Source: Lichina pygmaea
Lineage: Eukaryota > Ascomycota > Lichinomycetes > Lichinales > Lichinaceae
Reading direction: 5' to 3'
NCBI GenBank assembly: GCA_963422465.1
Contig: OY730173.1
Location: forward strand, 372,001-436,000
Length of the DNA stretch: 64,000 nucleotides
The translations under genes and the position numbers were made by a program. The notes under the pieces are model-generated. The model had not been told where the DNA came from and made no database searches. It saw only the letters and a list, made by a program, of their open reading frames with translations. Every line of letters begins with the position of its first letter. Position 1 is the first letter of the stretch. Positions 2,848 through 61,043 of the stretch are shown here, piece after piece.

Positions 2848-2853
2848 ATGTAC

Positions 2854-3162
2854 TCAGAACACTTTTGCTTGCACTCTTATCTCCAGTGATGTTAAATCCT
2901 TGCTCCAGAACACAGGGGTTATAGCTGACCTCTGTATTCTTCTGTTGATTAGAACCAGAGTTCTCCCTAACACTTGGTCTTGAAGAGGGTAGAAGGCTGA
3001 GAAGACTGTTGAGGTACTTGTTTCCTGGTATGGATTTCTCCAAGGTTCTTGAAGTGCAATCAGATCCACTTCCTGGAGTCTGGGGTTAGCTAGTAGAAGA
3101 TCTTGGCATGTCTGGCTTTTCTGCACATTATACTGGAGAAGGTTGAGAGTTGGTGTACTCAT
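2854..3162 (-). pseudogene. LINE ORF2 N-terminus, APE-type endonuclease fragment
   Basis: Starts at the ATG overlapping the ORF1 stop. It shows the beginning of an exonuclease-endonuclease-phosphatase fold: LLQYNVQKS (metal-binding Asn) and DLIALQEPW (catalytic Glu). It breaks off after about 100 residues where the sequence runs into the A-rich tail of the neighbouring plus-strand LINE, so only a quarter to a third of the domain remains. Confidence 0.75.
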
Positions 3163-4647: not shown

Positions 4648-5770
4648 CCACAGTCGTACTATGCCAGAACATAGTGTAGAGTTGGCACCCCCCCACAGGG
4701 TCTCTACCACGCTTTCCCACAGTCCCGAGGTTTCTTGCACTCCGCCGTACGTGCTCACCCCTGGGATCCTGCTTCAGAGCGCTGGGTCACCAGCCCAGAG
4801 CCCACGCTCCAACTGTAGTTTGCTCCCTGAGCTTGTCGTTTGCAGCCTAAGCCTGCACTCCGTACGAACCGGCATGCGCATCCGTCCTCTCGGGCTATAT
4901 AGACAGTCTCGTAGTAGGCCCAGGCCCTACCTCCGTCACTGCCATTATATGCCACGCCTCGCAGTTGTTAACTGTTTCACGTTACCTTCGCAGATCTCTC
5001 GTACGAAGGCCGACCATGCCTCGCAGGCCTTACGGACCCTGCAGGCCGTGCCAGCACCTGCAGGGCCGCCTTTCCAGCCCACTAACCAAGTAGGGAGGAG
5101 TTCTCCTTGGTCCGCTGTCGCCTGTGGGGCCCCGGTTGCACCTGTTGGCCCACTGGATAACCCAGTCCCCTGGCCCCAGATTGTGGATCGTACGAAGAGA
5201 CTTCGTGGCAAGGCCTTAGGCAAAACCATCAAGCCAGCACTTTGGCTATCACACGGCCCTTAGGCACTGGAGCGGCGACGTCTCCTCGTACGACCACTCT
5301 CCTTCTTTAACAGGTGGTCCGCGTTCGATTAACAACACCGCGGTGCCAAGGCCACTCCCCCCCTAGCAGATCCTCACGCGTTAGCTGGAGACTCTGCGAG
5401 GAGGGTGACGTGACGAGAACTCCTCTCGACTACTCCAGAGGTGCCCTATCAGACGCCTAGACTTCACATCCACCAGCTGTGGGGCTGGCTTCGGGCCGTA
5501 GCGTACACGGTAGTCGTCTGTCGGGTGGTTTTCATCTCCCAAGCTTGGTCGCAGTCCTCTGTTCTGCTGTAGCTGTTTCACGGGGGTGTCCAGGGTGCCT
5601 GCGCGACACCTCCGGTGGCCCGTCGCTCCGCAACACCAGCAGCTCGACCGGTGACTCGATTAGCTCTCGGTGCAGCGACTACGAGCAGCCTGGGAAGCCG
5701 CCCGCCATCGACTGCCCCGAGGTTCCCAGCCTGCACCACGTGGAGGTTCGAGTCGTTGCAGGCCCGAAAT
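4648..5770. other. GC-rich island of unknown origin between two LINE fragments
   Basis: About 1.1 kb of GC-rich, CpG-rich sequence with abrupt composition borders to the A-rich LINE pieces on both sides. Open frames of 200 codons (plus, 4661-5263) and 95 codons (minus, 4945-5232) resemble nothing I recognise. The word TCGTACGA recurs at 4999-5006, 5188-5195 and 5286-5293, with CCGTACGA at 4860-4867. It could be host DNA trapped between insertions, the 5' UTR/promoter of one of the minus-strand LINEs, or part of another element. I cannot decide between these. Confidence 0.5.
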
Positions 5771-7290
5771 TTGAAATAGAGATCTAGAGGTAAAAGAAAA
5801 AGCTCACTCTCTAATAAGAAAGATGGAGTGGCTTTGAAGGCACCTCCAATAAGTCTCAGGCATTTGTTCTGGAATGTGCTAAGAGAAGAGATATTAGAAG
5901 ATTTTCTTAGAGGATTGAACCAGATCCCCACAGCATAACTCAGTAAAGATCTGAGTATTGCAGTGTACACAAGACGTGATGTGAGGACTGGGAAACCCCA
6001 AGTAGAATATGAAGTTCTAGAAAGAGAGGAAAGTGCTTTCTGAGCTTTTTCAAGAATAATTCTCTGGTGCTTATGCCAGTGGAGTTTTGCATCCAGGTAC
6101 ACTCCTAATACTCGCACTTCTTCTTTTGGTCTTAGAATCACATTCCCCAGTCTGAGCTTAAGCTGAAGATTGTCTGATCTTCTTCTGGAAAAATGAAGTA
6201 TTTCATATTTCTCAGGAGAGAAGACCATTCCATGTCTTGCAGCCCATGATAGACATTTGAGGTGTGTGTTCTTCAACTTCAGAAGGTTGCTTTTTAGAGA
6301 GTGTCCAAATGCAAGCAGATTTGTATCATCTGCAAATCCCAGAGCAGAAACACCAGTGGAGGGAGAGTGTACAGTTTCATGAAGTTCAGAAATATAAAAT
6401 AGAAACAGAATAGGAGATAAAGGGGAACCTTGGGGAACTCCACAGTGAATAGGAATAGCAGAAGACTCAGAGTCATCAAACACAAGAGTGGTAGAACGAC
6501 TGGTGCAGAAAGAGAGAATCCAGGAAGATAGCCAGAGAGGAATTCCTTTTCTCTCTAGGATTTGTTGGAGGATCTTAGGTAGAACTCTGTCATAGGCTCC
6601 TGAGATATCCAGAGAAAGTAGAGATGCAACCATGCCTTCCTTCCAGACTTTTTCCACTTGGGAAGTTAGTAGGAAAAGTGCTGATTCAGTTGATCTTCCT
6701 TTCCTGAAGCCCATCTGGATTTCTGGCAAAAGTCTAGCTTCTTCTGCTACCTTGCTTAGCCTGGTTGCTGTAATAGCTTCCATCAGCTTGCCAGTTGTGT
6801 TTAGCAAAGCTATAGGGCGCCAGGCTTTAGCTTGGTTATAGCATCCTTTACCAGGTTTTCTTAGACAGACTGTCTTTGCATTCTTGAACCTCTCTGGAAA
6901 GTATTTCAGTCTCCAGCATGTTGATGTGAGAACAGCCATAGCTTGGCAGAACTTGGAACCCAGAGCTTTCAGAAATCCATTTGGCAGCTTATCTTTTCCC
7001 CCTGCTGTGAAAGGTTTCTTTTTGTTCAGGATTTGTTCCACTTCTTCAGCAGTAACTTCCTGAGAGAGCTGGATCTCTGGAGTACTCTGGGTACTCTCTG
7101 TACTTGGTTCTGGAACAAGTGCTTTGGGGAAGAACTGGACTGAGAATGCTATTGTCTTCTCCTCAAAGGTTTTAGCTAGTCCTTCTTGTGTTTCCAAATC
7201 TGGGACCAGGGGAAGATCAGGAGTCCTGTTGGCTTTTGTTTTTCCCCACTTTGCAAGCTTCCAGAATTTTGAAGAACTGGCTAGCTCATG
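5771..7290 (-). mobile_element. LINE fragment, central reverse transcriptase, minus strand
   Basis: A reverse transcriptase segment matching the plus-strand LINE from about 500 to 2020 (from HELASSSKFWKLAKWG to LPLDLYFKF), in opposite orientation. It is open through all RT motifs, including LDISGAYDRV, GVPQGSPLS and GFADDTNLLA. Both ends are broken: upstream it joins unrelated sequence near 7290, downstream it stops within the thumb region at the border of the GC-rich island. The frame runs on about 50 codons into the island by chance. Protein identity to the plus-strand copy is about 90 percent by eye. Confidence 0.85.
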
Positions 7291-7459
7291 GTAGTACATG
7301 TCTGATACCGGTATGTGTGAATGCTGTGCTCACTGATGGGGTCTTGGTAGATCTGCAAATGTAGAGCTACATCCATGGAGCTGGAGCTGGAGCTAGATCT
7401 AGAGCTAAAGGAAGAGAACATACAGGCTTTAATATTGCTGTCTGGCAGTGGCGGCAGTG

Positions 7460-25832: not shown

Positions 25833-28092
25833 TCATGATGTGGACGTTGACGATCCCTCGTTTCCCGCTCCCGGACCGGGTTCTTGATCTCGCCTCGGTT
25901 CGATCGTGGGATTGTTGCTGACGAACGAGAGTGTCGTGGCGGCGCTTCCGCCGCCCGTGCCAGGTGCGCCGCCGCTGCGTGCCTCGTTGCCGCTGCTGCC
26001 TTCGACCGCGCCCTCTCCGCTCTTCGTCGTTCCAGCCTCTTCCCGGCCCGGCTGGTCCTGTGTCGGAGCTTGGCTTGGCGCCTTCTCTTTGCCGTTCGGT
26101 TGCTGCGGATCGAGGCCCTTCCCCTCTTCTCTCAGGACCTTCTCTTTGGCCTCGAGCACCTTGGCGTCTGCCTCGGAGATGCCGCCGGGCTTCGACATGC
26201 CCGGATCGCCCTCGACCCCAATCGGGTCGGAGCGCCGCTCGACCCTCTCGCGCAGAGCGCTGCTGTCGAGACGCACAATCATGCAGGACAGATTGTCGGT
26301 GCTGAACCGCGACAGGGCGTGGTCCACGAGAGCCTTGCTTGCCGCTTGCGGATCTTGGACGTTTCGAACTAGATCCACCGCTTCCTGGTCCTCGCAGACG
26401 TCCCAGAGCTGTCGAGCCAGACGAAGTCAGCTCGGCGAGGTGGTAGTACGGCGCTCAGAAAGGAGGAGATCTTTTGGCAACCGGATGGGGCGAAAGACTC
26501 ACGCCGTCACACGCAAGAACGATGAACTCGTCCTGATCGGGTTTGATGACCGTCTCGGTCGTGTAGGGATGACCGGTCACCAGGTCCTTCATGTAAGCGT
26601 CGCCTAGAGCTCTGGTCACGGCGAGAACGCCGTTGACGCGATTGTTGAGGATCAGACCGCCAGCGCTCGAGACGCGCTTTCCCTCGTTCTCGTCGCTGCC
26701 CTTGTGATCGTACGACAGACGGAGGGCTTTCCCGTTCCGACAGAGGACGATCCGTGCATCTCCGACGTTGGCCGTGTAGAGAACACGTTGGCGCGTCGCA
26801 TCCTGCTGCAGCCGACTGGTCGGATTCGATGCCGAAGGGCTGGCGTGCGAGCCTTCGATCGATCTCGCATTTGTGGGTTGGCTCTGACCGGACTGTGAAG
26901 CGGGATCGATGCCGCCGCCGCCGCCTGATTGCGATGTATCGGTAGCGGCAGCGGCAGCGGCGGCGGCAGCAGCGGCGGCGGGACCGAGCGCCGACGAGCC
27001 CGTCGCGGACTGCCCGCCCGGGATCCGATCCTCCCAGCGCAGCACGGCGATGACGGCGGTGCAGCCACTGTTCTTCAGCGGCAGCTTCTCGAGCTCGTGA
27101 TCCACAGTCACGAAGGTCTGGTCGAGCAGCTCCGGGATGGGCGTGTTGGGGTGCTTTCGGATGGCGTCCTCCAAGATGCTGTGCAGCTTCTTGCCGCACC
27201 AATCGGCGGCGAAGGTGCCGGCGTGACCGTCAAAGACGGCAAAGTACCCATTGTCAGTCTCGACAACCTTCGAAGCCGGGTCGGCCGTGTCGGACGCGTC
27301 GGCATCGGGATCGCAAGCGGCGCCGGCGGCGCCGGCGGCGCCGGCGCCGGCCGGCTGACCATGCAGGTGGGGGGCTGGTGTGCTCAAGAAGTTGTAGAGG
27401 TACGAATGCGTGTCTTCCATGGTCCGACGACATTTCTTGTTGCGGTCCTCGGTGACGCCGACGGTGAAGGTAGATCGCGCGCCCGGGAGGGACTCGCCGG
27501 CGGAGTTGTTGTGCGGGCCCTGCGGCACGGCGAGGGCGGGATCCTGCTTGCCCAGCTGCTGAATGGGGTTCTGCTGATCGTCTTCGGTCTCGGCGGTCGA
27601 CGGAGCGCCCAGATGGGACGACGCGGACGATCCGGACAGATGCAAGGAGCTTCTGGCGCTCGCCAGAAAGGAGCTCGCCTTTCCGCTGCGGCGCTTCTTC
27701 TCCCCGCTCACGACGGCGTCGTCGGTCGATCTCCGGCCCGGCGATCCGTCGCCGAGACTGTGGCGTTTCTCTCCACCCGACGACGAGCCGTCCACGGCGG
27801 CACCATTCGGACCGTTGCCGGCGCTGTCGTTGCCGTCGTCCTTGTCGTTTGTCGCGAGCGACGTCCCCGCGCCCCTCTCGTCACCGTCCTTTGGCTCGGA
27901 TGGAGGAGAATGGCCGAACATACGGTTCAGCAACCCTCCCTGGCCGGAGAGGCTCCTCCGTTTGCTTCCTGCCAGCTTGTCGAACGTACCGCTGTCGTGC
28001 CTCCCACCGTGGTGCACTAGGCCTCGCTTCAGGAATCTCTTCGCTGCCGACGACGTCGAGTCTTGATTCCTGACAGCAGCTTTTCGGCGCAA
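25833..28092 (-). CDS. ptc1: Protein phosphatase 2C, Ptc1-like
   Basis: The main exon runs to 26503 and joins 26408-25833 ([20 protein letters not shown]). PP2C motifs are complete: [52 protein letters not shown] and [11 protein letters not shown], giving the Asp ligands of the two-metal centre. It removes phosphate from Ser/Thr; in yeast Ptc1 damps MAPK pathways such as Hog1. A long Ser/Gly-rich N-terminal extension (about 190 residues) and an Ala-rich insert (26940-26985) interrupt the fold. The frame extends upstream to 28092 without an ATG and meets a stop near 28113, so the start is either in an unseen upstream exon (possible acceptor GTCAG near 28074) or the ATG at 27921. The low-complexity C-terminal tail ends TSTS. 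Confidence 0.88.
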
Positions 28093-31449: not shown

Positions 31450-34400
31450 ATGACGGGAAACGGGAAACGCGTGGATCGGCCGCCAGCCCGCGCCGAGAGT
31501 CGCTCGAGCTCCAGAGATGGCAGGCCATCAACGACGATAGATCGACCGAGCTACATGATGGTCGGATCGGCGGCGCCTTCTGCAAGTGCCGACGCTTTGA
31601 TGGCGACGCTGGACGACTCGGGCTACGGAGGTAGCTTGATGGGGGAGAGCTCCACCGGTCCAAGTGCGAGTGGCGGCGGATGGCGGCCTCATCTGGAGGA
31701 CCCTGAAAGGCACAGCGTCGCGAGCCATATCCATCAGCTCCACTTGTACGTCTGGAGAAGCGCTTCTACGATGATGGAACTGGCTGACGTTGGTAGCAAT
31801 CATAACCGGGTGGCTCTGGGTCGCGCCATACATCGAACAATCGAGACGCTCAAGGGCCTTCAAGAGATGAACGCCGCATGGCCCGCTCACTATCCATCTG
31901 TGCAGCGACCAGAACGACCTGCGCCGTCGCACCGTCCCGAGCCTCGACCAGGTCTTCCGCACACTCAAACGACGGCGGGCGCGTACGGCCGTCAAGGCGC
32001 TTTGGGTGGTTCGTCGGCACGACCACAGGGGGTGCGGCGGGCGTGGTCGATGGACACGGAGGACGAGGTGCAAGCCGAATCGAGTTCGGCCGCGGAGAAG
32101 AAGGCAGCACAGGAGCCTCCTCGACTGATCACGCCGCAAGTGGCGCAAGAGTTTTCCGTCCTCAAACTGGACCTGAAGCTCGGAGCGCTTCCGCACGCCG
32201 AGCTAGTGCACTCGCTGGAGAAGCACTCGATCGCGTCTTTGCTCGACAACAAGATCAGCCAGAGCGTGCGACACCTGCTTGCGCTTCGAGACCGGATCGA
32301 GGATACGGCGAGCAAGGTCTTGGTGACGGGCGATCTCAACGCCGGAAAGTCGACCTTCTGCAATGCGCTCCTGCGGAGGAAGCTGCTGCCGGTCGACCAA
32401 CAGCCTTGCACGAGCATCTTCTGCGAGGTGCTGGACGCGCGAGAGAACGCTGGGCTGGAAGAGGTCCACGCCGTACACAAGAACGGCCAGTACGATCGCC
32501 ACGACGAAAGCACCTACGACGTCTATCGTCTGGCCGAACTGGAGAGGATTGCGATCGATAGCAATAGGTACATGCAAGCGAAGGTGTACGTCAAGGACAT
32601 CCGGACCATGGATGAATCTCTGCTCAACAATGGCGTCGTCGACATTGCGCTGATCGACGCGCCGGGCCTGAACATGGATTCGCTCAAGACCCATGCCGTC
32701 TTCGCGCGGGAGGAGGAGATTGACGTCGTCGTCTTTGTCGTCTCGGCCGCGAACCACTTTACGCTTTCGGCCAAGGAGTTCATCTGGAACGCGGCGCGCG
32801 AGAAGGCATACATCTTCATCGTCGTCAACGGGTTCGACATGATCCGGGACAAGGACCGCTGTCAACGGATGATCCTCGAGCAGGTCGCCAACCTCAGCCC
32901 TCGTACATTCAAGGAGTCGGCCGAGCTCGTCCACTTTGTATCGAGCAACGCCATACCGGTGCTGCCAGCCCCGGTGGATGTTGGCGGTCGGGACGGCGGC
33001 GGCGGCGGCGGCGGCAACGGGGGTGTCGGCAGCCGTTTAGGAGGGCCGGGTTACGGTGACGATGACGACAAGGACGGAGACCCCGACGACGATCACACCG
33101 CAGGGAAGCACGGAGAAGCGGGCGACCGAGACTCGAAAGGCAAGGGTAAGCAAAAGGAGAAGATGGAGGAGTTTGAGAATCTCGAGCAGTCTCTGCGACG
33201 GTTCGTCTTGGAGAAGCGTGCGCGGTCAAAGCTCGCTCCGGCAAAGACGTACCTGCAGAACGTCCTCGGCGATCTGAACACGCTGGCGACGGTCAACCGG
33301 GACGTGGCGCAGACGGAGCTCGACCGGGTGACGAGGGAGCTGAGCGAGCTCGAGCCGGCATTTGAACGGTCCAAGCGGGCGGAGGTGCAGGTCAGCGAGG
33401 ATCTGGACCGGACGATCGAGGAGACTTGCTCGGAGATCTACGACGACACCCGGGATGCCATCTCGACGGCGATCGCGCGGGTGGCGGAGGCCGACGTCGG
33501 GATGCCGTATCCTGGGATATGGAACGCGTTTCAGTACGCCGAAGACCTCAAGGTCGCGATGCTGGACCAGATCTCGGACGCCGTGAGGGCGTGCGAGGAG
33601 CACACGCGGGAGCGGACGGTCGAGGGGGTGCACGGCATCACGGCCTTGGGTGCGCTGCATCTCGAGCAGCACCATCACCGTCTCGAGGACGACGACGGCG
33701 GCGGCAACGGCAACATCGACGGCGACGAGCCGACCAACATGGACATGACCTTCCGATCGGATCTCATGTTCCGCCGCAGAAAGGACGCTCTGGCACGACA
33801 GGTCGATGCTCCGATCGAGATGTGGGATTTTGTCGACGTCTCGTCCTTGTTGCACCGCCAGGAGAAGGTCGCTGCGGGCACGGGCATGGCCATGACCGTC
33901 GTCGGTCTCGTCGGCAGCCGGGTCGTCGGCGGCGGGCTCGGATGGATGGACGGTGCGCTCGGCGCCGCCCGCGTGCTAGGTCGGACGAGCGACCTCAGGA
34001 GGCTGATCGTTCCGGGAATCATCTTGACCGGTAAGGAACCGTATCTACGTCTGGAGCTCCGTCTCCGGTTGGATCATCTTTCGCCCACAATCTCCCGACA
34101 GTTCCATCCCCCTACATCACACCTTTCCCTTTTTTTTTTTTTTTTTTTCCTGGCGCTCGAAACTAACAACTAACCCGCGCCCCAGTCATCTTGTCGACGA
34201 GCTACGTCGTGCTCTCGCTGCCGTACTCGCTGCCGCGACGGCTGTCGAGCAAGATCCAAGACTCGCTCGACCAGCTCAACTACACGCACGCCAACTCGCT
34301 GCGTCTGTCGAACGAGGTGCGCAAGGTGCTGCGCTACCCGGCCGAACAGCTGCGACGCAACATGCACCGCTCGCTCGACCGGCTCGGCACGCGCAAGCAC

Positions 34401-41019: not shown

Positions 41020-42808
41020 GAAGTTAAGCGATGCGACAAGGACAGAAGTTCTTCGGTCCGATCAGGCCACTCCAAACACTTTGTGCCATCGAAGCCGGCT
41101 TCGAGACCGGCCAAGGTTCAGAAAGAGATTGTCGCGATGCGTCTTCCGTCGTTCGAAGTAGCATCTCCACGCGACCGGGCCTTCTGCCCTACGACGGCCG
41201 ATCGGTCGCGCTGAATCGGCCCCCCTTGACGGCTGATCGCCGGATGCGGCGGGTCAGGGCACGTTCAGCCACCTGCGCTTGTCCGTGGTCAATGGTGATC
41301 TTCCAGCGGTCGACGTGGCTTGGCATTGAGTGAGATTGAAAGCACGTGACTCGAGTCATGTGATCACGCTCCTTTCCTCTGCAATCTTCATCGTTCACAG
41401 GGGGTGGGGCCCGTGTGTCTTGGTGTTCCTTTGGCGGACTAACGTCAGCAAAGCTGCAGGTGATCGTAGGAGCTGTAGAATCCAATGTTTTTCGTTAGCG
41501 GAGCCTGGCCAACGTACGTATGTAGCTGAGCACGACCAGCTTGGCAGGTCGGAGCCGTACCAGATCCATATGATCTGGCGTGCTGAGAACATGGCCTGTC
41601 CTCGAAACGAGCGGGAGGTATACTAGCCAGTCTAGTACATCTTGACACGCAATCTAATTAGCTGATGAGGTTACACATTGCCGTTCTGATGGCGACGTGT
41701 TTCCATCCGATACGTACGAATTTCAGCAAGACCTCGGTCGTGATGCCCTCATCATGCCGCCGTAGGTCCTCCTACCTCTGCAGCTGTCGAGGCGCAGCCA
41801 TTGCTCATCAAAGCTCTGATATGTACGTACTCTGCACTACAGACCGCACCAGTGCCACATATCTCTCGAAAGGCTTGCCGTCTCAAGGGCGTCGCCGAGG
41901 AGATCGCAAGAGGAAGGAGCGCCTCCTTGGCCGTCCGTCTCTTGACGGTCCTGCGGTCAAATGACGATCAAGGTCACTCTCCACCATCACTACCCGCGAG
42001 CGTGCTCAGATCCGTCGACCCATTTCCCGAGAACAAGTAGCAAAGGTGTCATGTTGTAGGCATGAGACACTCACGACTCCCTGTTTGCGTCAACACACCC
42101 TCTCGCCATTCTTCGGACCGTCCTATCTTTGATTGTTATCCGATGACGATACGTACGAGGTGGGTGACAGATATAATGTTACGGAAGTAGGCATGTACGT
42201 ACGTACAATCAGAAGTTATCAGCAGAGCCGCATTACCATAACTCTCAAGACATCTAGGCACTTGGTCTCGCGGAGGCGGCTCAGTGTTTTGACATGGTCG
42301 TTGATTTCTCAGCTTACTAATAGTACTGCGGTAACATTGTATCCGTCACGCACCTCGCGTGTACTGAAACCTGCGGTGTCGGCGCCGGGTGGGGTTGGTG
42401 GTAGTAGTGGCGGCGGCGACGGCGACGATTGAACGATCAAGGTGTGGTATGACCTTTTATCTTTGTAAACCGGGCTTCGAACCTGAAGTCTGGAAGCTGA
42501 AGCCTCAAACCGAAGTACCGGTATGCAAATTGGAGTCTGAAAACTGAAGGTCTCGAAAATGAAGTCTGGAAATGCATCTGAGGCTCCCCCAGGCAAGAAG
42601 CAGATATTCCTGCAAGTCCCCCACTGCTCCAGCCATTGTCCCATAGACGATACCCTGGCTTTGACAGTGCCAAAGTGCGACGTCGAGCTGGAGTTGAGCT
42701 TAGTCTGAGGTGCTAATCCCCGTATCAAAGTACTCGTACGTATGTACTGTACGGAGGTACAGTACAAAGTACAGTACCTCCCCACCCTAGTCTTCCCACC
42801 CTGATGTA

Positions 42809-42951
42809 CCAGTCAGGGTCAGGAGGTTTGAATCAACCCTCCACTACAGAACGTACAACTGACTATCATACAATTTTAGTGCAGGGGCTAGTACAGAATT
42901 CAAATCACTCGTAGTCGAGGCTTGATTCAAATCTCCTGACCCCGACTCTGT
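42809..42951. mobile_element. MITE-like element with ~38-bp inverted repeats
   Basis: Left arm 42810-42847 and right arm 42911-42950 are inverted repeats sharing GGTCAGGAG, TTTGAATCAA and ACTAC at matched places. They start CAGTC / CAGAGTC. About 63 bp of unrelated sequence lies between. TA dinucleotides sit symmetrically outside (42807-42808 and 42952-42953), as for a TA target duplication of Tc1/mariner-pogo type elements. No coding capacity. Confidence 0.7.
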
Positions 42952-43689
42952 TACAATCTAAACCGTATGGAGTACCTTCCGTACGAGTGCTCCGTACAGC
43001 GCCACGACACGAGTCTGCGCACACCGGTACAAGCCGTTGGCCGCCCATCCTCATGAGTAATGCGACGCCGATGTACGTAACGTACTTCCGTAGACTTACG
43101 TATGTACGTACGCACACCGACGGCAATAAGCCGGGGGGGGGGTGGGTATTGATTTTCTCCGGAGCTACCACGAGGTTGATTTTGTTTGGAGGCGTCACGC
43201 AGACCTTGTGTCGTGACACCTGTACGGAGTAATTAGCCCACCCTACCCTAATCAGCCCACCAACGCTGATCTACGGATTACCCCACTGGTTAATTATTGC
43301 ACGTTATCGTGTTACCATGCCTAACTACGGAATAGTCCGGCTATCAGTACGTATGTACCGTGGGTGTCACGAGTACGTACTTCTGTACACATGTACGATA
43401 ACTACAGTGACTACAGTACCTAACTACAGCGCAGGAGTACAGTGACTACAGTACTGTACCTAACTACTCTGTACTCGTACAGATTGTACAGTACAGTACA
43501 AATGTACTAGTCCGATGTCGGACACGCCATCTGATCTCTCACGATTATTGAGCTGGCACCTCTTCCGCCCTGTGCCCCCCTCCACTACCCCCTCATGCAC
43601 CCCCCCTCCATGCCCCTTGTCCCCCCCTACCATACCCCCCTCCATACGTACGTGCGTACGTAACGGACTGTACGTAACACCCGCAAACT

Positions 43690-43710
43690 CCCCCCCCCCC
43701 CCCCCCCCCC
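43690..43710. repeat. run of 21 C
   Basis: Homopolymer directly followed by the 7-bp minisatellite. Confidence 0.9.
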
Positions 43711-43711
43711 A

Positions 43712-43768
43712 AATCTGCAGTCTGCAATCTGCAATCTCCAATCTGCAATCTGCAGTCTGCAATCTACA
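43712..43768. repeat. 7-bp minisatellite (CAATCTG)n
   Basis: About seven tandem units of TGCAATC with single-base variants in GTAC-rich spacer. Confidence 0.9.
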
Positions 43769-44281
43769 CTTACTAAATTATTAGCAACCAGCTACTGTAC
43801 CAAACACACAGTACCTTCAGCACTGTACATACAGTACGTACCTTACTCGTACGTAGAGTACGGTAGAGTGGAGAGGAGTCACTACGGTATGTAACGTACG
43901 ATAAGAATCTCCAAGATAAGATAGGAATCTTGAGATAGAGAGCCTACGTCTCTCGATGAATCACTCCTTCTTCGTGGTCTTGAGTATTGACTTGATCGTC
44001 AGCTACGGTACGTACGGAAGTACGTATCGTGTGCTGTATGCGGGCACTGGTGGGCATGACATGGTAGGTACGGCACGTGCAGATGTGACCTCGTCACCGC
44101 ACGACCGAAGCTGCAGATCATGTACAGTACGCGTTTCGACTGGCAATTCTGGGGGTTCTATACGGTAATACACACCCATAACGTAGATACAAGTAGATGT
44201 AGACAAGTACAAATCGTAGATGTAGACCGGCTGTCTTCGACGCAAAGAGCCGCTTGTTCGATGGCTCCAGCAGCCTACGCC

Positions 44282-46605: not shown

Positions 46606-49600
46606 TCATAGAAGCAGATCCGGCTGTTCTGCCGCCGACTTGGCCGTCTCCGCTTCATCGTCATCGGACCCATTCCCCATCCTCGCTCCTCCGAAGCCCA
46701 TGTCGGACAAGGCATCGTCGTGATCACTACCGCCGTTCGAACGACCTTCCGCATCGACGTCGTCGTCGCTCGCTTGGAGGTGCCGGGTTTGATCCATCGT
46801 GACTATAGCCGCAGCTGCTGCGTTCTGATCGACCTTTGCGAAGAAGTGATGATCCGCCGTCAACCTTTTCCCCTGACAGACGTAGCCCATCGGGGTATGG
46901 GTGAAATCTTGATCTTTCCGGCGGATGGCCAACCATTCTTGGAGGAACGTCAGAGGCGTCGAGGTGAGGACTGGTGTCTGTCGCGTGCCGGGGCCGACGT
47001 CTTGCATGCTGGGTGACATTTGGCCGTCGGACTCGCTCCCTCTAGCTGCGGCTGAGACTCCAGGGATGAGTGCTACCTCCACGGATTCCGAAAGGTCCTG
47101 TCCGAGTCCTAGGTAGTCGCGCAGACCGTCGTACTCGTCGAACTCGAAGTATAGACGCCCGGCAAAGATGCCTAGCTCGACGGTCAACCAAGTTGGAGCT
47201 CTCCAGTTCCCTGGCAGAGCAGGGACGGCGTAGTACGTGAGGTCGTTGAAGTGAAGCATCCTCCGTGTGGTTGGGGTGGCGAACGTGAGTAGGTGGGTAC
47301 GGGAGTCGACGCTATCGCGGAGTAGACGCAGCAAGACTTCGGCCTCCTCCGGGATGATCACCAGCGCTGTATCGGTGAGGGTGCTCCAGAGGATCCAGTT
47401 GACGGGGCGCTTTCAGAAACCGGGAGGTTAGCCTGCGTTGCCGACGTCGTCCCCACCGTCGATCGTCGTCGAGGAGAACGAAACCGGACAGCAGACGAGA
47501 CTCACCAAGAAATTGTCGTTCGGTCGACCGGGCGGCGTGTTCACCGTTCTCGAGAATTCCCTTGACACGAACAGCCTCGACATCATGGCCTCGCTGCTGA
47601 TACCATACTTCTGGCCCAGAGCCGTACGTCGGACGGCCATCAAGGCGTGCTCGTAGCCTTCGTATCCCGCCACAAGCCTCCCCGTCTTCGCGAACTTGAA
47701 TATATCCGGGTGCACGCCTGGAAACGACAGAGGCGCATATCTCACCGGCTTCTGTACCTCGCGCACGCTCTCGACCTCGAACGAAACCTCTCTTTCTTGC
47801 TCGACCTCCTGCAGAGCGGAGCCGTTGACGGCATTCCCAAAGTCCTGGAAGCCCTTGCGCCGCGTATTGAGCTCCTTCACGAACGCGGCGATCGGCGGGC
47901 AAAAGGGGCCCGAGGTCGTGGCAGACTTTGACTTGTGCCTCGGCCTGTAAAGCTGCTCCAACGTCTGATGTTCCGTTTGCCGCAACGCGCGTAGGTACGC
48001 TCCACGCTGGTCCTCTTGCGAGAGAAAGTCTTGATTGTCCAGGGCCGCTTGGGTGCGTCGACAGAAATCGATGCCTTGCGAGAAGTACAGCGGCTGGAGT
48101 TGCTCAATGCTTGCACAGGTCTGATGCAGCAGCCAGTGGACAACGTCCGACGAGTCGATATGATCGAACTGGTTCTTCTTTCGAAAGTCAAGGATGCTCT
48201 GATGCACCTCCGGAGGAGCAAAGAAGACGATTGACTGTGACGTAGCCAGCTGTCGGAGTCTCATCGCCGCTGTTCACCGGTTAGTGCTCGATCACAGTCG
48301 CTCAACCGAACAAGAGTTTTCACGTACCTTGCACGGTGTTGTCTTTCGTCTGACCTAGACCCAGAGTGAGAGCTCCCCTGGCATTAGCTGGCATCTTCAG
48401 ATCCGTGCCGCGAGTATGTGCTTCGTCCAGGTAGACGAGGCAGTCCGTGAGGTTATCGGAAAATGGCGACGCTACAAGGGGAATCTCGAACCCGTCTCGA
48501 TATAGAGCGACGGGCTTGTTTTCGGCATTGAAGTACACGGCCGCCGAGGCTGCGTGGTCGACCGAGAGCCACTTCTTCACGAGGCTTTGATTGTCCATCT
48601 CTAGGATCTGCGCCCCTGCATCGATGAGCATTCGGATGCCCATCCTGTGGAGCGTTCTCAGAAGATTGAGCTCAGACAAGCGCTTGCCGGAGCGGTCGGC
48701 GGCCAACACGTATCCTCGATTCCGCGGCTGCAGCAAGTATGTCAGCACCTCTGCGTTGGTGTGCGAGAGCCGGCTGAGATCCTCCTGTCTGATCGTCAAC
48801 GGCAGCAGTGCTCTATTGTCGTTTGTCCCGCTGAAACCTGTCGTCAGCGGTTTCGGATACGCCGTCGAGGTCGTCTTCCCGTCCGATGATTGATCCTTGG
48901 GCGTGAAGAGAGGAATGTCCCAACCAGAAGCCTGTAGCTTCCTTTGGAACTGTTTTGCGTGCCCTGGGAAGACAAAGGTGTTCAAGAAGTAGTCGATGAC
49001 CACGATCCTGTGGCGGACATGCTTCCAGATCTGCAGAAGTTGCTGCTCGTCGTTCACATTGATGATGTTCCAATCCCGTAGCGAATCTGGCATGTTGCCC
49101 GAGACGTGAGTCCAACGATCGTATTCGCTGGAAGGGTCGTCGGATTTGACGAGGTGCTCGAGGCTTTGCCGTAGCTGAGCGACGTTGAGACCGCCGAAGT
49201 AGAAGGCGAGACAGGTCAAGAGGATGGCCACGTCGGGATGACCCCACTCGGCCTGATCGGACGGAACGCCTTTGGCGTGGAACGGGACCGCAATCGGGTC
49301 TCGATCTGGATGCAATCCGTACTGCACGTTCCATCGTTTCTTGAGCGTGAGCAGCAGTATCCGATGAACGAACAAGCCTCTGACCAAGTACAGTGTCTTC
49401 TTGATGACGGGCTTGTCGGGAAACATGCCGTCGATGCGTTCGGCAATCCCTGGATGGGTGACGGGTTCGGAGACGAACCGCCTGATAGCGTGACAGTCGG
49501 ACTTGCTACATTCTCTGGTCGGCACGATTGGCGTCCGACCGCCCACAATGTCTTCCACCAGTCGCGCTATCAGCGCATCCTCAGCGTCCTGCCGCAGAAA

Positions 49601-52600
49601 GTACACCATTGGAAATCCACCGTCGGTCCGTTCGACGACATCGATGCTTCGGAAGAATTCCCGTTGCAGGTTCCACAGGTGACCTTTCACCAGGTGCAGC
49701 AGCGTTTCAATCGTCTCCCACCGACGAGGATGGCCGTCGACGGTGGTTTGCGATCCCGACGGATATATCAACTGTGTTCGTACCGCAAGAGTGAAGTCGC
49801 ACTCGTCGAGCACATCGCGACAGACCTTCCGCAGCCACCCCTGCACTCTGACCATCTGGGTCGCCTCACGAACGCGGTTGTCCGACAGGCGTTGCACCCC
49901 ACTCAACATGAAGGACAGTATATGCTCCGGGAGAGCCACGATCACACCTGAGGATGCCTTGGCCTCCTTATGGATGTCGAAGAAGGCCTTGATGACCTCT
50001 GAGCCCGTCGGCGTCTTGCGAGAGAAGGGTATGTGGTTCACTTCGCGGCCCAGCAAGCCTCCTAGCCGAGCCTGCAGTATCTGAGCGGTCTGCAGCAGCA
50101 ACGCCTTGGGGACGACAACTCTCAGGAGCTTCTCCGTGTCGGCCAGCGATGTAGCAACCATCGGCATGATGCAAGAAGTTTTCCCTGTGTAGCCACGTGT
50201 CAGCTTCATCTGGTCACCGCTTCAAACGCCTTTGACGATCCTCATGAACCAATTTTCGCTTACCCTGTCCCATGTTCATCTGCAGCACAGAGTTGGAGCC
50301 AGAAGCCGGCGTGATCGTAGCGAGGGCGACGTCAACCTGGTCCGGACGTATCATGATGTCACCGTCCACCTCCAAGAGGAGCCAGTCGGGATACTGGAGC
50401 GGTTGCCAGTTGGTGTGACCCTTGTTCTTCTGCTCGTCAAGTAGTCGCTGGTGATCCTGCTTCTGGATGGCGCTCTGTATCCTGAGCACGCGTTGCAGGT
50501 TAGTGATGGCCACCCCGTAAGCAACCAGACCTTCCTTCATCCCAGTCCCGAATTGGGAGGTTGATGTAGACCGCAGCTGCTCTAGAAGGGTGAGTGGGGT
50601 AAGACAGGGCCACAAGCCGCCTTCTTTTAGCCATGGAGCACGAGAGTCGTCGCGTTCAAACGCTTCACAGAGGTGGCGGAAGCGTGTGCGTGCAATTTCT
50701 CGTGCATTGAAAATCTCCATGTCTACCTCCGCCGGTAGGATCGGCCTCTCCTCGACTTTTGGCATTCTCTTAAGTGCCTTCAAGGCGTTGATGCTGTGCA
50801 TCAAGTCTTGCGCGTACTGCTTTTGCAAGGCCGACGGAGACTTTGCGATGCCTGCGATGATGCTCTCTAGCTCCTGCACGTCTTCGGAAGTAGATGGAGG
50901 TTTCTTCTTGGGCAGGAGAACATCTGATCCGACTCCCTGAACGTTTTCCTTGATCTTATCGGCATACAGCGTCTTGTCGGTCCTGATGCTCAGAGGCCTT
51001 ACGTCCGTAAAAGGCATCGTCGGGAACACCGCTCCATATTTGTTTGGGTTCTCCTTGCGCAGAAGATCATGCGGAAGCGTAGGAAGCTGGCCTTCGCGAC
51101 GCCTCACCGAGAGGATTGTCTCGGCGCAGGTCAGGAACCGAGGCGGCTCCTCTTTGAGATTTGCGCAATAAACGTCGAGAACGATCTGCACTTCCTGTAT
51201 ATGCTGTGACAGCTCGTAGTTCTGATACAGCCGCAACCACTCGGCCCGAATGATTTCCAGCGCTTTGGGAATATTGAGAAGCACAGCTCTGGAGAATCCA
51301 GTCATTTGTGGCTCGGCGCATGGCCACTGCTGGATAAGAAATTGAGCGAGGGCTTTGCAGTCACCGGTAGTTTGTTGCTCGTGTGCCAACTCGGCGGCTT
51401 CAAGCTTCTTGCGATGTTTGGCGCTGAGGCTGTTGTGGAAAACACTCCTTTCGTCTCCAGGGTAAGGAACGCAACAGGATTCCATCAGCTGCAGAAGATA
51501 GTCTGCGGTCGGGGGCTGGTTCAGCCGAAATTGCATGTAGCAAGGCCACATCGGAGGTTCGAGGGTCTTGAGGTCCCTGAGGACCGAGAAAGCGATCAGA
51601 ACGCGAATCACATCCATTTCAGCGTCGTTGCGGAAGGACATGATTGCGAACAAGAACATCAACCGATACCGGTCGGCGGTGCCTGACTCGCGGCAAAGAT
51701 TGACCAGTGATCCCCACTCCAAGGGTAGATTGACGTCAAGAAGGTCGCTTAGCAGGATCTTGCTGAACGAACCCTGGTACCCTCCAATCGTTGGCCATTC
51801 CTGAAGGATCGCCGCCAAGCCAGAGGTTGTAGGCATCTCGGGAAACTGATTCCGGATAAGCCACACGCTCTCAGCTGCATTTGCACATGCCTTGCCAGGT
51901 TCGGCACGATCTCGCGCAGGATATACCGTGTCAGGAACTGCATCAAGCACACGATAGTCCGGGTTGGGCCGCTCGTAAACGTGGCGCCGTACGCGACTTC
52001 GATTCAACAGGTGCCGAGGACCGCCGAAGGTCTCGATCGAGGGCCCCGTGGGCCCGTCCCCTTTGGTCAAAGTGAACAGAGACAGCTGATCTGACTTCTG
52101 CCAGATCGATTCGACGGCCGGCCTGAAGTCGTCATTTTGGATGGTCGGAGTCAGGTTTGCGTCCCAATAGACGTGCTGCATGGCCTTGGCATCCCTTGGA
52201 TAGTACTCCCTCTTCGGACTTAGTCTCGCGATCGCCTTGAGAACGACGAGGGGTCCAGAATTCAGCGGCGTCCACGGCTGACAGTATCCCGCGCTCAGGC
52301 AACGTAAGGCCTCCTCCGTGCCCGTACGTCCCGTGAGAGCATCCGGCACAACGAAGGACGTGTAGGCATGCAGCTGAGCCTTCAAGTACAGGAGCCGCGG
52401 CTCGATTGGACAGTCAAGCCGTCCAAGAACCTCGTTGATGGCGAACCGGCCGTAGCTCGAGTGATTTTCGATCCTGACCGAAACGTGGAACCTGTTCGGT
52501 ACGCATTTGGCTTCACCAATCGGCACGATGATGCTGCGTTGAGTGCGGTTGAGGACATCCCGCAGCACGAGCATACTTCTGAGCCCATAGAAAGCTCCCG

Positions 52601-55600
52601 GATCTTGATCGGAGTCTATCTCGGCTCGTAGCTGATGGCACTGAAGGAGATTCCGCTGATTGACGGTGAAGAATAATTCCAACCGCCGGAGCTCTAGGGA
52701 TAGCGGCCTGGATAGTGGTTGGAAGACCGTGAGATGCTCGCGATGCTCAAAGTCGTCAAAGATCCGTGTGATGCGCTGAAACAGCGCACTATGCGGATTC
52801 ACCAGTCTGCTCGTCCGACGGTGTGCTATATGGGTGTTGAGGTCAACGAGCCAATTGCTCGATTTTGATTTCCAGATACTCGGCCGCTGCCTGATCTCCA
52901 GGACTCCGGTCCGTAGATTGAGCCAGTGGACGCAGTTGTGAACAAGGGAGCCTGGTAAATCCCGATTCGACAATCCACCGAATACCTCGGACGGAATGAA
53001 CTCCATGACGGCATCTCCGATGTATGCATGAACGAAGAGGCTTCCGTTGCGGAACCCCATATGTACCTGGTGCTTGCTGATCGCAAAGGGGAGGGTGTAA
53101 GCCATGCCGCGAAGGGCCGACGGATACGTGAGAAGATTCTGCTGGCCGAAGAGCTGCTTCACAGTCACCGATCCTCGATGTTCGGCGGGCAGCTTGCCGA
53201 GCGGTTGGCCGTCGACGAGCAAGTGGCCTTCGAGTACGTGGTAGTGTATCTTCTGCTTCCTGGACTGGAAGGTCGCTGCAACGGTACACTCGATCCACCA
53301 CTTGTTCTGACCGTCGAGAAATCTGACTGCCATTTTGGATCTTGAAAAGTCTCCGCCGAGCTGCTGCCAAACGTCCTTCAGAGCGGCTCCAACGCTCTCT
53401 ACGCTGGCTTCGACCGATCGACGAAGTAGAAAGCGCATCCGATGGACCATCTGCAAGTCGCGGATGAGTGCGTTCTTGACGTTAGTCGGCATAAGGGCGG
53501 GATCACCGCTCATGTTATCCTGCAGCGTCACCGAGCACTCGATGAATCGACGCAAGGCTTCGGGGTACAGCCTCAGGGTATCGGCATGTTCGGCGTAGAC
53601 AGTAAACGTTCTCCTGCACAGCATGGCGGCCAAAAAGGCATGGCGGGAAAATCGTTTGGAGGCCTCGACGTCTGTCGACTTGTAGATCTCCTCCCGTAAG
53701 TGTCTCATCCAACTTCCCGTGATCCTTCGAGCAGTTTCGAGCAGGCCGAGAGCTTCGCTATTGATCGGCTCGGGCGCAAAGGAGCACAGCCTGATAATCA
53801 AGGTGATTAGCATTGCCATGCAGTTCGTCTCATGCCAATTGGAAGAGATGTTGTCCATCCGGCGGGAAATCTGCTCCGACAATCTCTTGCCAAAGGAAAC
53901 GTCCCGCAACACCTGGTGTATCATTCGGAAAGGATCTCCTTCGGGAGAAGGCCCTGCTTGTAGCACCAACTGCGTTATGAGGGAGGTGACGGCTTCGGTG
54001 CTGAAGTTCAGGTTCGACGAGCCGAGCTCGATGAGGATGGAGAGCCAACGACTGCGCTTGCCAGAGAAGAGCGTCTGGAAGGCGAGGAACTCGTGCACGC
54101 TGACCCCGGTAGGACACCTGGTCTGACTTGCGACGATGTCGTACGAAGATGGACCGTTCGATTCCGCCGCAAGCGCAGGTGAGTTCTGTAGCGAACTAAA
54201 TGGAGATCCTGCCGGTATGACGATCGGACAGTGGTGGGCAAAGTTTGGCCTGCCGGCCTGACGTCCAGGCCATATCCCGGTCGAGGTATCGAAGTAGCCT
54301 AGTTTCAGTCCGTTGGGTAAACAAACCTTCTCGAGGTTGACGGGAAAGGAAACGCTGTTGTAATGAGTGGAAAGAAAAGGCTTGGTGGTCGAAGCGAGCG
54401 TCACGGCGCCTCTCTTTCCTCCCCGGACGAAGGCCCCGAGCTCCGCGTAGTCGTAGAGGGTCAGGTAAGGCGGACGGCCCGCCATCCGGTCTGGACGAGC
54501 GAGGATGCCCGATATCTTCCAGGTTGCGTCGCGGTAGGCGACGAACGCCTTCGGGCAGTTCAGCTCAAAGAGCACCGCTTTCACGTGTATAGGATCGGAC
54601 GGTAGAGGGTGCTCGTGTATACCAATCCTCATGCGCCTAGCTCTGCGCTGGATGTAACACTTGCTGCATCCTTGATCGTCGTGATGGACCAGTTGATTCT
54701 CATCGGTCGTGAAGACGCAAGTGCTCGTCGCGACTGCTCTCTCGAGTTCTTCGAACTCGGCACTCAGCCTCCGCCACTCATCTTCCTTCCTCTCGCGTGC
54801 AGCTTCGGCTTTCGCCTCGATTTTCCGGCCAAGTGCCTCGAGGGTTCCGGACTCGTCCCGTTCGTCAAAGTAACGCTGAGCAAAGCAATTCTTGCCCGGA
54901 TCGTCGAAGATGGTCTGATGGACGAAAACACAATCCCGGTGACGCACTCTGAGATATTCCTGCAGCGTCTCAAGGCGAAAGATGTGTGCGATGTGCTCCA
55001 GTTGCAGAACATCCAAGGCCTCGGGAGAGATGCCCGGGCTGTACGCCGACAGCAAGGGAAGCAGTTCAGTGGCACGCTGGTCCAGCTTCATCCAAAGCTG
55101 CATGACTCTGAGCAACATCATGCTCTTGTGCTCGGGGCTAGAATCATATGCGGGCATTGCAATGCTCAGATACCTATCGATGCGGTACTGAATGTCCAGA
55201 CAGTAGTCAGCGCCGCTGGTCGTCGTGGCCGGCGTGGTCGAGCAGAATGAGTCGATCTCTGCCTCCATCTCCGTCAACGAGGAGTAGCGAGCCCCGAAGA
55301 CCCCAAAGGGCCTGGTGGTCGCTTTGGCGAAATCAATTCCGACATTGAGCCGGTTGCTCGAGTCCGACTGAGTTGCGGCACAACTCTCCTGGTGCCACGT
55401 CAGGACCTGCTGGAGATAGGCCTCGCTGTTCGGGAGAGACAAGATAAAGTCTCGCGGGTCCGCTCGGCGGGGAAGGAGCGGCATAGGCCGTCGGACAGAT
55501 CGCTTGAACTCATCCCAGGTCCTTCCTAGGCTCTGGTTTGCTTTCTTGAGGGTATTCCGGAAAAGGGTCCCAAGAGCGCCGAGCGTTTTCTCATATGCGG

Positions 55601-56631
55601 GACACACATCAAGTGAAGCCCTGCTTTTGTCGAACTCCAACTTGGCAAGGCGGCGCGCAAGTTTTGCCTTGAGAAGGGCCACCAAGTCTGGCTTCAGCTC
55701 ATCCAGACCATCTTCTATTAGACGGGCCAGCAGGACGCAGATCAGACTCTTGTAATATGCCCTTCCCACTTCATGGCCGTGGAGAGTCTGCAGGAACCTC
55801 TGAAGGGCTACGCGTAGCACCAGCCAGAACGCAGATCTGCGCCAAGGCTTCTCCGCTCCGTCGGTCCAGCAGACGTCGTCACGAACACGTTTGCGGAGCC
55901 GCGGAGGAAAGATTCGGCGACCGTTGACTTCGAGCAATGTCATCAGCAAATGGCTGACCAAAGCAGGATCCACGGTGTCGCGACTTTCGAACGCAGAGGA
56001 ACCGGCTTTGTGAGTGTATGCTGCAAAGCGCTTGATCGACTCTCTGCTAGCCTGCTCAAGGAAAGTGGCCAGCTGGTGCTGAAACGAGAGTTTGACAAAC
56101 TCCTCGTAGGGAAGTGCGACCGCGCATCCGGGAAAATCCCACTGCAACGCTGCCTCGGCCGCCAGAACCTGTTCTGATGCCGGTGATGCCTCGAACGCTT
56201 CGAAAACGACAACATCCTGACCGAGTCTGCGGACGATAGGAAAATGTGTGAGCTTGCTAGGGAGGATATGGAGGATAAATGCACCAGAAGAAGACCTACT
56301 CGATACGCCGTGTGATGAGTAAGCCGGCGTTTTGGGCTGAAACATGCAGAATCAGGATATCCTGTTGTTCGAGCCTCTGAAATGCATCCGACAGAGAGCT
56401 CCTTTCCAACCGGCCGCCAGCATTGACGGCCATGCAGTTTTGAAGAGCAAGGCGGACCCAGTCCCACTGACGGCTGAGCTGGCCATCGTTCAGGTCTCTC
56501 AGCGTCCGGCTAGCGTCCAGGAGGCGGTTTGCGAGGTGATGTTCGATGTCTCCGATCCTGCTGTCAGACTTTCCAGGGAGTTGCGGAGGTAGTGCGACGT
56601 GGTTGATGATGGCTTCCAGCTTGGGAGCCAT
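46606..56631 (-). CDS. giant DUF6606-DUF3638-DUF3645 protein with SF2-like ATPase motifs
   Basis: Exons 56631-56309, 56226-50264, 50184-48328, 48269-47506 and 47409-46606 total 9,711 nt (3,236 aa). N-terminus is DUF6606-like (HVSAQNAGLLITR, VVVFEAFEASPASEQ, CWTDGAEKPWRRSAFWL). DUF3638 lies around residue 2,030-2,200, with its known LLE (WLLLEVDGD) and NMG motifs; the latter reads LQMNMGQG|KTSCIMPM, a Walker A loop. VVVPKALLLQTAQIL and DVLDECDF (DExD) follow. Then come DUF3645 and VYLDEAHTRGTDLKMP with QAAMRLRQL, which resemble motifs V and VI of SF2/SecA ATPases. Relatives are often auto-annotated as ubiquitinyl hydrolase; I see no basis for that here. The first junction works only as a GC..AG intron (CG|GC at 56309). 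The C-terminus is acidic. Function unknown. Confidence 0.85.
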
Positions 56632-59330: not shown

Positions 59331-59946
59331 TCACGAGACGGGGCCGACGGAGCTTGGCCTCGAGACGTTCGGACGCTCGCCATGGCCAGGCCGGTGCTCG
59401 CCGCCGGCATCGTCGAGGAATGATGACAGGTCGGCCACGGGAGACCGTGTCGCGTCGGCGAAAGCGGTGTCGTTGGCCATGGGCAGGTCCATGCCGTCGA
59501 GGTCGACGTCGAACTCATCGATGCTCTGGCGCCTCGAGGGTACTGCCGACAGGGTGGACCCATCGGTCGCGGCGGGCGACGGCGACGGAGGCGCAGGCGA
59601 GCGCCGCTGCCGAAGCTGCCGAAGCTGCCGCCGCCACGCCGGGTCCGGAACCGGGGCCAGGTTGTCGGCCTCGCGGTTCAGGTAGTGACGGATGCGTTCG
59701 CAGCCGCAGTTGCTGTGCTTGAGCATCTCGCCCTTCAGGAAGAGCACCTCGTCCTTGAGCGAGCCGACGACGATGCCCAGCCGATCCCTCTCCATCTGGA
59801 GCGAACGCGCTCGGCCCTCGAGCTTGCTGGTCCACTCCTTCTTCTTCTGTCGGCACTTGCTCGCCGCGACGCGATTTCGCTCGAGGAACCTGTTGCGCTT
59901 CCGCTCCTCCTCCGCGGGTGCGACGGACGACTCGGCTTTCCCGGCC

Positions 59947-59981
<35 letters not shown>

Positions 59982-61043
59982 CACGGACAGTGACGACGAT
60001 GGTAGGGCAGGTACGGCCGGTAGCGGTGGCGGCGGCGGCGGCGGCGGCGGTGACGTCGACGGTGTTGCCCGGGCGTGTTCGGTCGACTCGGCACCGTGGC
60101 GGCGCCGACGACGCTTCGCCGGAGGAAGGGCCGGCTCGGGCTGGCCGAACGGACGGTCCGTCGACAGCGCGTCCGATTGCCGGCCGCGTCGCCGCTTGGG
60201 ATTTTCGCTCGGCGGGTCGGTCGCTTTGCCGGTGCGGGCTCTGGTCGCCGTGGTCGGCCGTCGCGCAACGTCCGGGGATGCTGCGGCCGGTTTGCGCTCG
60301 GGCTCGCGCTCGGGCTCGGGCTCGGGCTCGCGCTCGCGTCGACCGACGTGGTCCTGCCGGCGATCGACGACGCTCGGGATGTCGTCGTCCGGGGGCGTGA
60401 CCTGCCCGTACCGCGACCAGATCGGGCCACACGCCGTTTCGACGGCGAGCGGCAACGGCGACGCTTGACGGGTCGTCTCGGCGGTGGCGCGCGGCCAGGC
60501 GCCGGGAAAGGCACCCTTCGTCATCATCATCATCATCATCGTCATCATCAACGTCGTCGGTGGCACCGGCGAGCGTTCCTTCGGAGGCGACAGCATGCCG
60601 GGCGCCGGGGCGATTCCAACGTCGGTCGGCGGGCCGGTCCACATGGCGGCCGGGGCGATGGCGGCAGGGAGGGTCGGCGCCGCCACGGCCGTCGAGGCGT
60701 CGGCGACGTACTTCGAACCCGATCCGAGCCCGTCGTCTGCCATGTCCGCACCGAAGATGGGAGGCGACAGCACGGTCGAAGACAGGCCAAAGAACGGCGA
60801 CAGAGCATCGGAGTCTTCCATGGCGCGGACGAACGGATCGAGCGAGGCCGCGATCGCCGGCTGCATCGCACACGGCTCGCGCAGCGCCAGTTCGGCCCTG
60901 GCGCCAGCGTCGGTCAGGCTCTTGCCGCCGTTCAAACTGGCCTGGCCCGCCCTGAAGGACTTCTCGAACAGGTCGTGTTGCCCGTCCATGTCGAGGTCGG
61001 GCGTCAGCAAGGTCGGCGTCCGGCTCTGGACAGCCATGGCCAT
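59331..61043 (-). CDS. ATF/CREB-type bZIP transcription factor
   Basis: A single exon of 570 aa from MAMAVQSRTPTLLTPDLDMD. The bZIP is at about residues 380-445: basic region KRNRFLERNRVAASKCRQKK, then a leucine zipper (LEGRARSLQMERDRLGIVVG, LKDEVLFLKGEMLKH) and the ATF-type extension SNCGCERIRHYL. The NxxAAxxCR signature is complete. Flanks are low-complexity: a poly-Met run from (ATG)n at 60525-60550, an E/P/R run (60300-60350), poly-Pro and poly-Ala (59945-59985). SRYGQVTPPDDD resembles a motif of Atf1-like fungal factors. Such proteins act in the nucleus downstream of the stress MAPK and bind CRE-like sites. The exact paralogue (AtfA, AtfB or Atf21 type) is not settled. Confidence 0.88.

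Follow-up and report, generated by a model that had tools for sequence, protein, structure and literature searches.

The 64,000-nucleotide stretch of the Lichina pygmaea genome analyzed here (contig OY730173.1, positions 372,001 to 436,000; hereafter the window) carries on its minus strand a five-exon gene (56631-46606) for a 3,239-residue protein that is a direct member of the DUF3638/DUF3645/DUF6606 family. Based on motif conservation and predicted structure, we regard it as very nearly certain that DUF3638 and DUF3645 mark a superfamily 2 (SF2) ATPase, and as highly probable that SecA, the bacterial ATPase that works with SecY to drive preproteins across membranes, has the architecture closest to that of their core. 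With moderate confidence, we further suggest that this core would be a motor that moves polypeptides.

Family membership is given by Pfam matches above the curated cut-offs: DUF6606 (196 and 81.6 bits; E 1e-57 on exon 2), DUF3638 (225.3 and 72.2 bits; E 8e-67 on exon 3 and 5.1e-20 on exon 2) and DUF3645 (60.6 bits; E 8.7e-17 on exon 3 alone). DUF3638 covers Gln2074 and motifs I to II of the first predicted RecA domain, and DUF3645 forms part of the insert that follows motif II.

Conservation of the ATPase motifs

SF2 motifs I, II, III, V and VI are present with conserved catalytic residues in a MAFFT alignment of 64 cores, three fungal and 61 bacterial; 60 bacterial regions were fetched for it, each of which was one uninterrupted open frame. 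Invariant in all 64 rows are Gln2074 (50337-50339; all coordinates of the gene are on the minus strand), which is Q-motif-like and lies 26 residues ahead of the Walker lysine, Gly2099 and Lys2100 of motif I (NMGQGKTS, residues 2095-2102, 50174-50276), Asp2225 and Glu2226 of motif II (DVLDECDF, 2222-2229, 49793-49816) and Thr2552 of motif III (GFSGTN, 2548-2553, 48821-48838), which resembles the GMTGTA of SecA. Asp2620 is found in 62 of the 64 rows, and motif Ia (VVVPKALLLQTAQIL, 2121-2135, 50075-50119) forms a block of the same alignment. In motif V (YLDEAHTRGTDLKMP, 2683-2697, 48389-48433) the Gly is kept in 57 and the Asp in 52 of 63 rows, and in motif VI (QAAMRLRQL, 2717-2725, 48247-48331) the Gln is present in 63/63 and Arg2721 and Arg2723 each in 62/62. 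One row that ends at a contig edge (L056) is left uncounted for both motif V and motif VI, and a second copy from the window genome (L005) for motif VI, where tblastn reads AAMRLRRL.

The bacterial relatives that hold these motifs are only 15-21% identical to the window exon; given this and the Pfam E-values on exon 3, the motifs are no chance resemblance. The DUF3638 profile by which the relatives were picked spans just motifs I and II, so that the conservation of those two motifs was partly selected for; motifs III, V and VI are not part of that profile, and their conservation is an independent test.

A preliminary description, made from the letters of the window, had proposed a large ATPase of SF2/SecA type, and the alignment and predicted RecA-like domains support that proposal. 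Neither of the outcomes that it named as refuting, a predicted fold lacking RecA domains or an absence of motif conservation, was obtained. Its readings of NMGQGKTS as a complete Walker A loop after splicing, of DVLDECDF as a DExD box and of QAAMRLRQL as motif VI all held. The motif Ia that it placed about 40 residues further on is present, beginning VVVPKALLLQT, but starts only 26 residues after the start of NMGQGKTS. HTRGTDLKMP, from residue 2688, stands as motif V in its Gly and Asp; the Arg position of RGTD, however, is Arg in 11 rows and Thr in 25 and, unlike Lys2100, Asp2225 and Glu2226, is not family-wide.

Predicted structure and the insert between motifs II and III

Two AlphaFold2 models were built, one for exon 3 of the window gene and one for the bacterial homologue L048 (m21f98865e307). 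The first alignment used for modelling held 62 of the 64 rows (without L056 and L083), and the second held 51, L097-L107 also being left out for length. The exon 3 model, which excludes the first strand and motif VI, has a predicted local distance difference test score (pLDDT) of 87.2 and a predicted template modelling score (pTM) of 0.87; the L048 model contains all the motifs at a pLDDT of 93.1. With high model confidence, the family core is predicted to contain two tandem RecA-like domains, as the preliminary description had anticipated in suggesting a structural comparison with SecA, RIG-I and Ski2. Of four structure rankings (Foldseek and VIA-align, each for the window exon and for L048), three put SecA at the top, and for the L048 model SecA fills the first 11 ranks in Foldseek and the first 16 in VIA-align.

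The part of the core beyond motif VI may add to this likeness. In the L048 model a 42-residue helix (725-766) follows motif VI. Of the 24 SecA rows in the VIA-align comparison, 22 extend, with the SecA C-terminal region, to model residue 823-827, the DEAD-box rows ending at 734-737; rows for RIG-I, MDA5 and LGP2 extend to 762-792. These observations are compatible with, but do not prove, a helical scaffold of SecA type beyond motif VI in the predicted bacterial structure. The corresponding region of the window protein (residues ~2756-2794, 48040-48156) would by analogy be placed like that helix and may likewise be scaffold-like.

SecA differs from DEAD-box proteins in having a preprotein-binding domain between motifs II and III. 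Across the DUF3638 family these motifs are 269-369 residues apart (326 in the window protein), compared with 183-335 residues in 11 SecA proteins and 30 residues in eight DEAD-box proteins; the distances were taken with simple patterns, which measured 11 of 16 SecA and 8 of 11 DEAD-box proteins and missed the others. The insert of the window protein (residues ~2240-2500, 48980-49762) is PPXD-like by position and predicted fold. Among the 50 best rows for each model, SecY-bound SecA structures (5eul, 6itc and 3dl8) have at least 95 more aligned residues than the other SecA rows: 554-570 versus 337-459 for L048 (21 other SecA rows, two of them truncated constructs) and 385-394 versus 264-280 for the window model (13 other SecA rows). 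In view of these extra residues, we read the modelled insert as sitting in the closed-clamp position. The strand entering the insert is DECDFTLAVRTQLIYPSG in the window protein and DEVDSILIDEARTPLIISG in SecA. By hhalign, a part of the insert that adjoins and overlaps the DUF3645 match (residues 2390-2422, 49214-49312) pairs at E 0.012 with a SecA segment, which we take to be the end of the preprotein-binding domain; homology of the insert itself with the SecA domain is, at this level of similarity, only suggestive. The residue registers against SecA come from local hhalign alignments, in which motif VI is off by one residue.

Gene structure, relatives and distribution

The five exons partition the protein as follows. 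Exon 1 (56300-56631) encodes residues 1-110 and matches DUF6606 profile positions 1-100 (E 7.6e-23), and exon 2 (50264-56226, ~1,987 residues) carries the remainder of DUF6606 (profile from 101), the N-terminal body and, at its end, the first 51 positions of DUF3638, as far as the NMGQ of Walker A. Exon 3 (48328-50184) supplies the GKTS, motifs Ia, Ib, II, III, IV and V and the PPXD-like insert with DUF3645. Exon 4 (47506-48269), recognized by tblastn with the paralogue, contains motif VI and the region after it, and exon 5 (46606-47409) the C-terminal tail up to the stop codon; neither has a Pfam match. Intron 2 (50263-50185, 79 bases, GT-AG) interrupts the Walker A loop and intron 3 (48327-48270, 58 bases) interrupts motif VI, and splicing restores NMGQGKTS and QAAMRLRQL. 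For intron 4, the acceptor giving the longest open frame was taken from five AG sites. The preliminary description had given 3,236 residues, slightly short of the modelled length, and the span it quoted is the 3' part of the gene only.

Two DUF3638 copies were found in the window genome (32.5 Mb, 8 contigs): the window gene and L005 (C5:1712500-1722400), which is on the same contig, on the opposite strand and 1.3 Mb away. Identity between the two is 41% for exon 2 and 56% for exon 3 (41-58% over tblastn pieces), and L005 has the variants DESD, RGID and MRLRRL in motifs II, V and VI. The Walker A and motif VI introns fall at identical codon positions in the window gene, L005 and a third copy, L006 (NYXK01000198.1). 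L006 and L014 (G001:C138) are from contigs of a public metagenome-assembled genome (MAG) labelled 'Deltaproteobacteria'. We rejected L006 as a bacterial gene and take it for a fungal contig in the bin because its introns are at the two codons of the window gene; L014 appears to be split near the first of the two intron sites. Both look like fungal contamination of the bin.

Among 192 genomes searched with the DUF3638 profile there were four matches at E<=0.001, two of them above the Pfam cut-off (the contaminated MAG G001 and G168); two weak matches in other genomes were set aside as proteins that by eye look RecG-like. Of 52 genomes in the phylum of G001, only G001 itself gave a match, and none of 14 named control genomes did. 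G168 has an intronless DUF3638 frame of 2,701 residues that reaches the contig end, and in its phylum DUF3638 was detected in 110 of 232 genomes at E<=0.001 (94 above the Pfam cut-off; a second count of 236 genomes was much alike), with at least 11 scored copies in one genome. The longest frame there has 4,471 residues; many measure 2,500-3,700, and others are shorter. Genomes of 0.8-1.3 Mb in the same phylum gave weak matches (E ~4e-4 to 1e-3).

We take the phylum of G168, from marker sequences, to be Chlamydiota because chlamydial major outer membrane protein was found in its members G207, G248 and G276 (E 2e-230 to 1e-210, along with 13-36 Pmp matches) and in G168 (26 porin pieces), and in 0 of 14 controls; Pmp was found in 1 of the 14. 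Two counts weigh against this identity: the porin was detected in 4 of 12 genomes tested, the eight other DUF3638-bearing ones having none, and Pmp in 4 of 13 genomes, G168 being without it. The three Pmp-rich genomes checked have sub-threshold DUF3638 matches only.

The bacterial giants resemble the window protein in layout as well as in core. The Walker motif starts 1,429-2,407 residues into the seven giant frames that lie whole within their loci, and at residue 2095 of 3,239 in the window protein. Three bacterial giants, two of which end at a contig edge, have DUF3638 together with sub-threshold DUF3645, and in one of them ankyrin repeats lie close to the start. A profile built from ten giants (>2,600 residues), searched against three sequences, matches the window core at residues 2019-2744 (E 1.7e-61) and also, weakly and in the same order, residues 978-1348 (E 7.5e-4; 3.5e-8 in L006), and therefore homology with the bacterial giants may extend beyond the core. 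Some DUF3638 giants occur as neighbouring pairs on the same strand (L115 95-19135 and L114 3-14741), suggesting local duplication, and the G168 protein (L015 1651-9756, minus strand) has C-terminal hydrophobic stretches that by eye resemble a paired chlamydial membrane anchor of Inc type. Large frames in two of the genomes taken for chlamydial, G277 and G343 (L167, L168, L169 and L170; the three biggest 3,010-5,178 residues) match SecA_DEAD and have TGEGKS loops. They were rejected as DUF3638 members, as the core profile reaches at most 11.3 bits on them and only at the Walker loop (E 3.5e-5, eight sequences searched); they are possibly a second SecA-like giant family.

Nine giant-virus proteins in BFVD share the core fold when the L048 model is the query (E 1.1e-27 to 2.9e-14); five of the seven that are named (E 1.1e-27 to 2.0e-19) are called DUF3638 and two ubiquitinyl hydrolase 1. 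Searches of viral_contigs with a single sequence and with the fungal pair gave no match, which may reflect the short exact patterns used there since giant-virus relatives exist in BFVD. Plasmids and phages (tblastn) gave no relatives, PHROGs and PADLOC no match, NCBIfam no match to exons 2-4, and phmmer of exon 3 against PDB sequences six matches, all unrelated (best E 0.46).

Published work places DUF3638 in other eukaryotes: in two proposed new genes of Tetrahymena, with a mechanism described there as undefined (PMC12615304); in a figure legend among the Pfam domains of large microsporidian gene families, which the study selected because signal peptides or membrane domains are enriched in them (PMC5423893); within the five most expanded gene groups of Hypomyces perniciosus, with nine genes (PMC6627653); and, with DUF3645, in one lineage-specific gene of Aspergillus oryzae (PMC6237848). 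A passage on Amoebophilus effectors mentions 'SecA-like helicase-related domains' (PMC3482391), which may be a previous observation of related proteins, in a symbiont of amoebae. Our literature searches, which reached few subscription papers or preprints, found no paper assigning ATPase or other function to DUF3638.

Elsewhere in the window, frames for a PP2C phosphatase (26458-28092, minus strand), a dynamin-family GTPase (31450-34170, plus strand) and a bZIP factor (59334-61043, minus strand) have no evident functional link to the giant gene. Two RVT_1 frames near the window start (71-2662, plus strand; 5581-7299, minus strand) are probably retroelements, and an intergenic region (42700-44100, plus strand) appears by eye to be dense in GTAC/TACGTA words, with a run of C near 43690.

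A proposed motor and its relation to known systems

Taken as a whole, the results are in our opinion explained best, with reasonable though limited confidence, by a SecA-like SF2 ATPase core that pulls polypeptide within a giant protein. Residues ~2050-2830 would comprise a first RecA domain with a clamp-like insert between motifs II and III, a second RecA domain, and helices like the SecA scaffold. ATP would most likely be bound and hydrolysed between the two RecA domains, the clamp would take hold of a polypeptide and pull it, independently of the Sec pathway, and the 2,000-residue N-terminal part may select or receive the client. The analysis establishes the structure of the gene, the conservation of its motifs, the predicted fold and the spread of the family, from which ATP hydrolysis, polypeptide as the track, the part played by the N-terminus and the cellular location are inferred.

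Several sequence-level and structural results weigh against the SecA comparison, and a fold by itself does not reveal a substrate. No Pfam SecA domain was found in any of the five exons (E<=5). In a profile search of PDB sequences, nine of 11 matches (E<=10, best 0.047) were SF2 helicases and none was SecA, the matches including HamB, XPBII, MJ0669, MDA5, DinG and RAD25. By hhalign, the first RecA domain is nearer to DEAD-box proteins (E 7.7e-6, probability 84%) than to SecA (E 0.0036, 9%), and it matches a group of ~1,100-residue proteins that we presume to be Mfd at E 0.002, with the caution that these E-values are not strictly comparable because the alignments differ in diversity; two other SecA segments gave probabilities of 3.5% and 1.5%. 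For the window model, Foldseek returned no match at E<=1e-3, placing INO80 first and SecA second, followed by Brr2 (Ski2 type), MDA5 and RIG-I, none significant, and in the VIA-align list the lead over the helicases exceeds 1 for just the two best SecA rows.

The helicase matches in the PDB profile search and the nearness of the first RecA domain to DEAD-box proteins are grounds for considering the protein a nucleic-acid translocase or helicase, that is, a very large SF2 enzyme that binds RNA or DNA through its insert and N-terminal part. Consistent with such an enzyme, eIF4A, FANCM and RIG-I in the window ranking and DEAD-box proteins, RIG-I, LGP2 and MDA5 in the bacterial one trail SecA closely, and some of them align past motif VI. 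However, the SecA-like insert is not present in the DEAD-box proteins measured, and SecA tops both structure rankings of the complete core; we consider a helicase unlikely, while giving it real weight. A ubiquitin hydrolase or other enzyme of the ubiquitin system, with the ATPase as an accessory such as an unfoldase coupled to an N-terminal peptidase, would accord with the naming of two giant-virus relatives, and an ATP-driven unfoldase fused to a protease would make sense, but no Pfam peptidase family was found in any exon (E<=5) or in three bacterial giants (E<=1), and we think this improbable. A regulatory nucleotide switch or scaffold without translocation might suit the giant size and is the least credible reading, because a mere scaffold would not need the Walker Lys, the DE pair, the Thr of motif III and the two Arg of motif VI that are invariant across very distant members.

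DUF3638, found here in a fungus, in chlamydiae and in giant viruses (and reported by others in ciliates and microsporidia), can now be tested as a motor whose catalytic residues are named, and the database label of ubiquitin hydrolase would need testing. Should the likeness to SecA extend to function, eukaryotes would have a plastid-independent ATPase of the bacterial Sec type that pulls proteins. A wider and more tentative proposal, which we hold at somewhat less than even confidence, is that SecA-type protein-pulling motors operate outside Sec in giant proteins of fungi and other eukaryotes, of Chlamydiota, with large expansions, and of giant viruses of protists, and were probably exchanged inside shared protist hosts; if true, the window protein would represent a SecA-like motor in a fungus, with no connection to plastids. 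That some chlamydial genomes carry many copies, as opposed to the sub-threshold matches in the three Pmp-rich ones checked, would be in keeping with a function during life within protists.

Compared with known systems, the family core is like SecA in its predicted fold, in the position of the insert, in its motifs III and V, which resemble GMTGTA and RGTDI, and possibly in the long helix after motif VI of the bacterial model. It is unlike SecA in its identity of 10-17% over structure-aligned residues (SecA rows, window model), in the lack of a Pfam SecA match and in being embedded in a 3,000-residue fungal protein with DUF6606. With SF2 helicases (DEAD-box, RIG-I/MDA5, XPB and DinG) it shares RecA domains and motifs I-VI in the same order, but DEAD-box proteins have 30 residues between motifs II and III where the family has ~300, and the fold scores of the helicases are below those of SecA for the complete core. 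Proteins of the giant viruses Harvfovirus, Fadolivirus, Hyperionvirus and Hokovirus are like the bacterial model, the only one with which they were compared, in predicted core fold. Finally, DUF3638, DUF3645 and DUF6606, whose Pfam descriptions are without function, are names that here map onto a predicted ATPase.

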